Shown here piece after piece: positions 43,485-45,862 of a stretch of 64,000 bases of DNA. The notes beneath the pieces were generated by a model. It was not told the origin of the DNA and searched no databases. It saw nothing but the letters and a program-made list of their open reading frames with translations. Numbering within the stretch: position 1 is the first letter of the stretch; each line of letters begins with the position of its first letter. The stretch lies in contig JANQWC010000028.1 in the NCBI GenBank assembly GCA_030730025.1, positions 1 to 64,000 of the forward strand, in the 5' to 3' direction. The DNA comes from Crocinitomicaceae bacterium (GTDB lineage Bacteria > Bacteroidota > Bacteroidia > Flavobacteriales_D > Crocinitomicaceae). A program made the position numbers and the translations under genes.

Positions 43485-44957
43485 TTATAAACCTAAGCCT
43501 CGGTAGTCTTTTTTACCCGTTTCATCCATGATTTCCAGCAAGACACCTCGATTCACACCGCTTAACTTTTCGGTGAGTTCTTCGACGGTTTCGATTGGCT
43601 CGTTGTTGATTTTGGTAATGATGATGCCCTCGCTCAAGCCGATTGCCTTGAGTTTGCCGGTGCTGATGGTCTTGATTTTGACCCCAAAGCTGATGTTGAG
43701 CTCTTTTTTCTCTTTGTCGGTGAGCGGGATGAAGGTGGCGCCGAGTGCGTAATTTTTGTTGATTTCTTCTTTGCTCAGCAATTCAGTTTCGCCGTCTTGG
43801 TTGCGCAGCACCAAATCTTTGGTGATGATGTCGCCGTCTTTTTGACGCACGCTGAGCGTGACTTTATCGCCGGGGCGGCGCTTGCCGATTTCTTCTTGCA
43901 AAGCAGCTACGGAGTTGACTTCTTTGCTGCCAATTTTGAGTATGACATCGCCGTCTTTGAGCCCAGCTTTGTCGGCAGATCCGCCCTCAACAACTTTTGC
44001 AATAAAGACGCCTTTGAGGTCGGTGAGCTTGTTTTTCTCCTTGATCTCTTGCGAAATATCTGAAATTTGCACACCTAAATAACCGCGCTGCACGATGCCA
44101 AAATCGATGAGGTCGCGCATCACTTTATCGACGAGGTTGACCGGAACGGCAAAGGAATACCCAGCATAAGAACCCGTTTGAGAAGCGATAGCGGTATTGA
44201 TGCCGATGAGCTCGCCGCGCGTATTGACCAACGCTCCGCCGCTGTTGCCTGGGTTGACTGCCGCGTCTGTTTGGATAAATGATTCGATCGGCACTACTTC
44301 TTTGGAATTGCGCTCCGAAAGCAAATTGATGTTGCGCGCTTTGGCCGATACAATGCCGGCAGTGACGGTAGAAGTCAGGTTAAAAGGGTTGCCCACAGCC
44401 AAAACCCATTCGCCAATTTTGAGTTCGTCGGAGTTGCCAATCGGAATAGCGGGGAAGTTCTCACCTTCAATTTTGAGTACGGCAATGTCTGTTGAGGGGT
44501 CTGTGCCCACCACTTTAGCAGCGTATTTGGAGTTGTCGTTGAGGATGACTTCAATTTCGCTGGCATTTTCAATGACGTGGTTGTTGGTCACTATATAGCC
44601 CTTGGACGAAACGATAACGCCCGAACCTGCCCCCGCGCCGTATTGTTTGAATTCACGGCCTCCGGCACCAGGGCCGTAGAAAAACTCCTGAAAAGGATCG
44701 CGCTGAAAAGTGGTTTGCACTACTTTGGTGGTGATGTGGACCACCGAATGCACCGTGCTTTCTGCTGCTGCAGTGAAGTCGAGGCCTTGTGGAGTGCCTT
44801 GGTAATCAACTTGATGGATGGGTGCTCTTCGGTTGCCATCTAGTACTTGGTCCGATAAGCGGCTACTGTTATGTTGAATAATGACGTAAGTAGCCAAAGG
44901 AAGGGTACCTCCTAAAATACCCAAGCCGAATAATTTGAGTGTGCTGGTTAGTGTCAT
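43485..44957 (-). CDS. DegP/HtrA serine protease
   Basis: NNHVIENASEI, TDAAVNPGNSGGALVNTRGELIG, two PDZ-like regions. Confidence 0.94.
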   Translation of the reverse strand: MTLTSTLKLFGLGILGGTLPLATYVIIQHNSSRLSDQVLDGNRRAPIHQVDYQGTPQGLDFTAAAESTVHSVVHITTKVVQTTFQRDPFQEFFYGPGAGGREFKQYGAGAGSGVIVSSKGYIVTNNHVIENASEIEVILNDNSKYAAKVVGTDPSTDIAVLKIEGENFPAIPIGNSDELKIGEWVLAVGNPFNLTSTVTAGIVSAKARNINLLSERNSKEVVPIESFIQTDAAVNPGNSGGALVNTRGELIGINTAIASQTGSYAGYSFAVPVNLVDKVMRDLIDFGIVQRGYLGVQISDISQEIKEKNKLTDLKGVFIAKVVEGGSADKAGLKDGDVILKIGSKEVNSVAALQEEIGKRRPGDKVTLSVRQKDGDIITKDLVLRNQDGETELLSKEEINKNYALGATFIPLTDKEKKELNISFGVKIKTISTGKLKAIGLSEGIIITKINNEPIETVEELTEKLSGVNRGVLLEIMDETGKKDYRGLGL

Positions 44958-45020
44958 ACTGTCAGATTTTAATTATTTGCTCCATAAACGCAAAGAGTGT
45001 TCCAAAAATTGCTTGAAAAA

Positions 45021-45050
45021 TGTTAAATTTTGTTAAGAATTGTTAAGGAT
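45021..45050. repeat. three TGTTAA boxes at 10-bp spacing, candidate regulator site
   Basis: TGTTAAATTT TGTTAAGAAT TGTTAAGGAT at 45021, 45031 and 45041. Confidence 0.7.
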
Positions 45051-45058
45051 TATTCAAC

Positions 45059-45066
45059 TATTTTTG
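45059..45066 (+). promoter_or_regulatory. -7 box of dapF promoter
   Basis: TATTTTTG, 10 nt upstream of ATG. Confidence 0.5.
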
Positions 45067-45076
45067 TTTGCTCGCA

Positions 45077-45862
45077 ATGACACTACAATTCGCCAAATAT
45101 CAGGGTACAGGCAATGATTTCATCCTGCTCGACAACACCTCAGGTGCACATGACAATTTGTCAATTACTGACATTCAGCTGCTCTGCAACCGCAAATTTG
45201 GCATAGGCGCTGACGGCCTTATTGCGCTGCAAACACATGCAAGCCTTGACTTTGAAGTGATTTATTACAATGCCGATGGCACGCAATCTTTTTGTGGTAA
45301 CGGCGCGCGCTGTGCGGTAGCTTTTGCACATACCCTTGGCCTTTTGAAAACGCCACACACCCATTTTTTAGCCATAGACGGCCCCCACGAAGCTTGGTTG
45401 TGCCAAGACGAAGTGCGCCTCAAGATGTCCGATGTGCCACCTATTTTAGCACTTGAAAACGGTTATGAAGTCCAGACGGGCTCGCCACACTTTATTTTAG
45501 AAGATGCCAATCACGACACCGCTCGTGTTGTCGAAGTAGGGCGCAGCATCCGCTACAACGACACTTATAGCAAAGAGGGTATCAACGTCAATTTAATGGC
45601 CATTCAAGACAACTCCATTCAAGTGGCTACCTATGAAAGAGGTGTGGAAGACGAAACACTATCTTGTGGTACAGGCGTTACTGCTGCGGCGCTGGTTTTT
45701 GCCCAACTTCAAAATTTAGCTTCGGGTAAAGTGAAGGTTCAGACCAAAGGCGGCGCCTTAATGGTTGAATGGCAACAGCTCGAAGATTTATCTTTTTGCG
45801 AGGTGTACCTTACCGGGCCAGCCAAACGCGTTTATAACGGAATTTATGAGCTTAAGGGGTAG
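45077..45862 (+). CDS. dapF: diaminopimelate epimerase
   Basis: FAKYQGTGNDFILLDN, FCGNGARCAVAFA, ETLSCGTGVTAAAL. Confidence 0.95.
   Translation: MTLQFAKYQGTGNDFILLDNTSGAHDNLSITDIQLLCNRKFGIGADGLIALQTHASLDFEVIYYNADGTQSFCGNGARCAVAFAHTLGLLKTPHTHFLAIDGPHEAWLCQDEVRLKMSDVPPILALENGYEVQTGSPHFILEDANHDTARVVEVGRSIRYNDTYSKEGINVNLMAIQDNSIQVATYERGVEDETLSCGTGVTAAALVFAQLQNLASGKVKVQTKGGALMVEWQQLEDLSFCEVYLTGPAKRVYNGIYELKG

Follow-up and report, generated by a model that had tools for sequence, protein, structure and literature searches.

A conserved 10-bp direct repeat upstream of htrA in Crocinitomicaceae, a probable operator for an RprY-family response regulator

Which gene is served by the phased TGTTAA boxes that lie between htrA and dapF in a Crocinitomicaceae genome, and what kind of regulator might bind them? 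We addressed these questions by computational analysis of a 64,000-nucleotide stretch of contig JANQWC010000028.1 (the window), for which a preliminary description had proposed an OmpR/PhoB-type response regulator site. To our knowledge, little is understood of the way in which Bacteroidota detect envelope stress and respond to it. In other phyla, the OmpR-type response regulators CpxR, CiaR and CssR act through a direct-repeat site to control an htrA protease. The window site would be of this kind, with different regulators and sequences.

Results

The htrA gene (43485..44957, minus strand) encodes a 490-residue DegP/Do-family serine protease (TIGR02037 above cut-off, with trypsin and PDZ domains) and is the most likely target of the site. 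Its neighbour dapF (45077..45862, plus strand, ATG at 45077) encodes a 261-residue diaminopimelate epimerase (TIGR00652 above cut-off); coordinates, strands and family matches confirm the divergent arrangement originally described. Within the intergenic region, TGTTAAATTTTGTTAAGAATTGTTAAGGAT (45021-45050) contains TGTTAA starting at 45021, 45031 and 45041, in the exact 10-bp steps that had been reported. Read on the htrA (minus) strand, these boxes comprise an htrA-proximal TTAACA (half-site 1, 45021..45026), a distal CTTAACA exactly 10 bp away (half-site 2, 45031..45037; box at 45031-45036) and a third TTAACA (45041..45046) that overlaps the expected position of the dapF -33 element. The dapF -7 element TATTTTTG (45059..45066, plus strand) begins 8 bp after 45050, also as described.

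Dinucleotide shuffles make a chance origin unlikely, with 0.01 triples (at two or fewer mismatches) and 0.01 exact doubles expected per window. The assembly spans 1.78 Mb and is 81% complete; in all of it the exact double occurs here, twice and overlapping, and at one other place only. That other copy is a tandem TTAACAGCA stretch located 7 bp before an ORF (L001 1480-1525; G000:C18:3374).

The conservation check upstream of htrA, which could have refuted the earlier proposal, was then run and did not do so. Within the genus the dapF/htrA divergent arrangement is kept, and TGTTAA-N4-TGTTAA(G) is retained in nearly all congeners, down to approximately 68% htrA identity. The conserved unit on the htrA strand is CTTAACA-N3-TTTAACA, which is found about once per congeneric genome, upstream of htrA; a reversed control pattern gave almost no matches. 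TTAACA-N4-TTAACA at exactly 10 bp was present upstream of htrA in 24 of 27 congeners and in 16 of 19 other genera of the family or order, with orientation fixed towards htrA and approximately 0.1 expected per spacing. The third position was not conserved: sister species read TGGTAA or worse there (TGGTAA on the plus strand in L005-L007), and the third box is perfect in this genome only. The exact triple was absent from the 149 other related genomes searched and was rejected as a conserved unit. The three boxes initially noted are present in the window, but the unit that evolution has kept consists of two.

Beyond the genus, the repeat was also seen in 11 genomes from other families, whose htrA genes share 46-57% identity; it has 0-2 mismatches there and points towards htrA. 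Even where another gene separates htrA from dapF, the repeat outside the genus remains with htrA. The site had been described within the htrA/dapF divergent region; conservation upholds its association with htrA and not that with dapF, and dapF as sole target is disfavoured. In putative Weeksellaceae (f33), the htrA repeat has a spacing of 10 in seven of 15 loci and 11 in four, and in putative Flavobacteriaceae (f65) a spacing of 11 in six of nine, both in the orientation opposite to that of the window's order (loci L310-L334). Both family names are assignments based on the Riemerella-like fragments described below, on genome size and on RNA families of Flavobacteria type. Among 75 named Bacteroidota loci, the 10-bp spacing was found 13 times in the TTAACA and 13 times in the TGTTAA orientation, and the 11-bp spacing eight times in the TGTTAA orientation, against approximately 0.45 expected in each case. 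Spacings of 20-22 bp were also raised in Flavobacteriaceae and in the named Bacteroidota set. Over all sets, the shuffled control (first-order resampling of dinucleotides) predicted between 0.04 and 0.46 occurrences in each spacing class, where as many as 24 were observed; these figures are to be read as counts and not as probabilities because related species are not independent. The shared feature is a direct repeat of two half-sites, 10-11 bp start to start, peaking at 10 in genus and order and at 10-11, in either orientation, elsewhere in Bacteroidota.

One further htrA locus (L286; G646:C1:1-20000) has TGTTAAATCGTCGTTAAA upstream at an 11-bp spacing. This 20-kb stretch also contains a GAPDH-like ORF, and a GAPDH gene is also found near htrA in the window.

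The repeat proved to hold a fixed position ahead of the target's core promoter. A second conserved htrA promoter element, CGTTTATG in the window and GTTAnnnTTG in most congeners, has its GTT (44987..44989, minus strand) 31 nt after half-site 1; 22 of 25 congeneric sequences (window included) and 14 of 16 from other genera have a GTT that follows the htrA-proximal box by 30-32 nt. Fourteen congeners, together with two further genera of the family, show a -7-like TAnnnTTG 32-33 nt after the box. The window's subclade combines CGTTTATG at this element with a conserved TTTG (44991..44994, minus strand) that is shifted by one helical turn towards the boxes relative to other congeners and is a possible alternative htrA -7 element. 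The CGTTA-like element holds its 30-32 nt distance order-wide, even where no TAnnTTTG box is visible.

Outside the genus, most copies of the repeat precede moxR or htrA; copies are also found next to a gene for a membrane histidine kinase followed by one for an OmpR-type response regulator. A set of 30 moxR loci was chosen by protein and not by motif; eight were left unscored as the start was not located. The 10-bp repeat was present in all 22 scorable loci, with TTG (TTTG) starting 36-38 nt downstream in 19, a fixed placement like that at htrA. Six loci of other families (L085, L086, L087, L089, L095 and L114) carry the repeat 55-86 bp upstream of an RprX-like kinase gene; among genus members no exact copy was found at that position. 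In L086 and L066 the product of the divergent neighbour of the kinase-side repeat carries a C-terminal sorting domain of type IX secretion, and this gene may be a further target. We propose from the distribution of these sites an order-wide regulon that would include, as a minimum, htrA, the moxR/Bat operon and the two-component operon encoding the regulator itself.

The response regulator paired with the RprX-like kinase scored 327 bits to the NCBIfam RprY model (NF051850) and 160 to the next family, below the equivalog cut-off of 370 bits. RprY was by far the best family for the regulators considered (259-339 bits, next approximately 160-174 where scanned), with all scores below that cut-off. 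As previously stated, the window itself yielded no OmpR-family regulator. Neither the main RprXY-like regulator nor a Bat-type MoxR was found in the window genome (G000) or in its nearest relations (G008, G011, G013, G020, G022, G002 and G015), of which G020 is 100% and G022, G011 and G015 are 99% complete; the htrA site is kept in these genomes. Since the main regulator is absent where the site persists, the regulator acting in the window's lineage is one that we infer. The sole RprY-family regulator seen in the window genome is a paralogue (G000:C12:59393-60067; 259 bits to RprY) with receiver and winged-helix domains. The recognition-helix region of this protein reads RSLDVFITKLRKYL, closely similar to RSMDVYIAKLRKYL in the main regulators and to RSMDVYIAKLRKLL in f33. 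This paralogue is the best candidate regulator here. Regions upstream of the paralogous regulator, that of the window genome included, contained no convincing copy of the repeat. One congener (L032) has the regulator in fragments and no site. Phylogenetic analysis placed Weeksellaceae regulators in a separate clade, joining the paralogue with weak support (80/95).

A published system offers direct comparison. In a Riemerella anatipestifer study (PMC9603813), DAP-seq and EMSA identified TTTAACA as the most conserved element and showed PhoP bound at the moxR promoter as well as at its own operon; moxR, batA and batC were lower in the phoP mutant. The Riemerella 'PhoPR' pair corresponds to RAYM_RS09735/RS09740, for which primers are given in PMC5399024. 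Peptides encoded by these primers (GEEGLK, GYQLGAD, KGMGMEP and KGQGLG) match f33 kinase-regulator pairs with small differences. Three pattern searches with the regulator fragment returned no exact match in that species and instead near-identical f33 fragments; the f33 regulator so matched scored 301 bits to RprY and 172 to the next family, below the 370-bit cut-off.

Discussion

The 10-bp phasing of the boxes and their link to htrA are well supported. We consider it likely that they form an htrA operator bound by an RprY-family OmpR-type response regulator, here probably the paralogue G000:C12:59393-60067. The earlier proposal of an OmpR/PhoB-type site serving htrA gains support from the conserved 10-bp repeat, from the sites at the RprXY-like operon and from the published Riemerella PhoP data. 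Binding by this particular regulator, the sign of regulation and the signal are matters that we infer from sequence comparison. Two TTAACA half-sites, separated by one helical turn, would be occupied by a head-to-tail dimer of an RprY-family regulator. Such a dimer would be placed approximately 30 nt ahead of the htrA core promoter and would most likely activate htrA under envelope stress. In the window's lineage, where neither the main RprXY-like system nor the Bat operon was found, the retained site would probably be used by the RprY-family paralogue. The third box would add a half-site, which might make binding stronger or might be incidental.

Against the RprY-operator reading, the orientation of the site relative to htrA varies between clades, and the reading is weakened because published work describes RprY of Porphyromonas gingivalis mainly as a repressor of chaperone genes. 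A site of the same kind could instead be served in this lineage by an OmpR-family regulator outside the RprY family, given that the nearest relatives are without the main RprXY-like system and that the window genome has three other OmpR-type regulators (126-138 bits to RprY). We judge this unlikely, as the motif is identical to the sites at the RprXY-like operon and at moxR/Bat and the recognition-helix region of the paralogue matches the RprY family. Control mainly of dapF, or of both genes from a shared divergent operator, appears rather improbable: although, of 22 congeneric sequences that include the window, about half place the dapF -7 box 22 nt beyond box 2 and the others approximately 11, 21, 24 or 30-33 nt beyond it, in roughly one-turn steps, the repeat outside the genus does not follow dapF when another gene comes between dapF and htrA. 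The intergenic region is A+T-rich, as chance repeats would require, but the low shuffle expectations given above and the persistence of the repeat at htrA identities of approximately 50% refute that reading, to which we give practically no weight.

The two-box operator is distinct from the question of the third box, on which we are evenly divided. It may have no role in regulator binding and represent a dapF -33 region turned into TGTTAA by one base change: the sisters have TGGTAA at the same place, with TTG/TTTG preceding the dapF -7 box by approximately 16 nt, and the restriction of the exact triple to this genome agrees with such an origin. On the other hand, extra half-sites are known elsewhere, L011 carrying another box on the htrA side, and the raised 20-22 bp spacings in other Bacteroidota would fit a role.

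Returning to the RprY-family operator, comparison with described systems reveals likenesses and differences. Riemerella 'PhoPR' shares the TTTAACA half-site, autoregulation and moxR/Bat activation, and its primer-encoded fragments match an RprY-family system. It differs in that htrA is unnamed among its targets in the passages of PMC9603813 and PMC5399024 consulted, and in that the htrA repeat of its Weeksellaceae relatives is reversed with respect to the window's order. RprXY of Bacteroides and RprY of P. gingivalis represent the response-regulator family that scores best by NCBIfam for the regulators considered here, though the latter stay below the equivalog cut-off. Their targets, like those proposed here, include stress genes. 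P. gingivalis has lost the sensor, a situation akin to that of the window's lineage, which is without the main RprXY-like system. The RprY papers that we searched give no binding motif.

More broadly, we tentatively put forward, at slightly under even likelihood, an ancient Bacteroidota envelope-stress regulon under RprY-family regulators, in which htrA and moxR/Bat would be core targets through a 10-11 bp TTAACA direct repeat and which would play a Cpx-like role; the window's lineage would have lost the main pair and the Bat operon, the htrA operator passing to the paralogue. The comparisons also suggest that the Riemerella 'PhoPR' is an RprXY relative. The lineage would then provide a case in which an operator has been kept after loss of its likely original regulator. 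A two-box operator with defined spacing, together with its putative targets (htrA and moxR/Bat) and a named regulator family, makes a direct test of envelope-stress control in Bacteroidota feasible.
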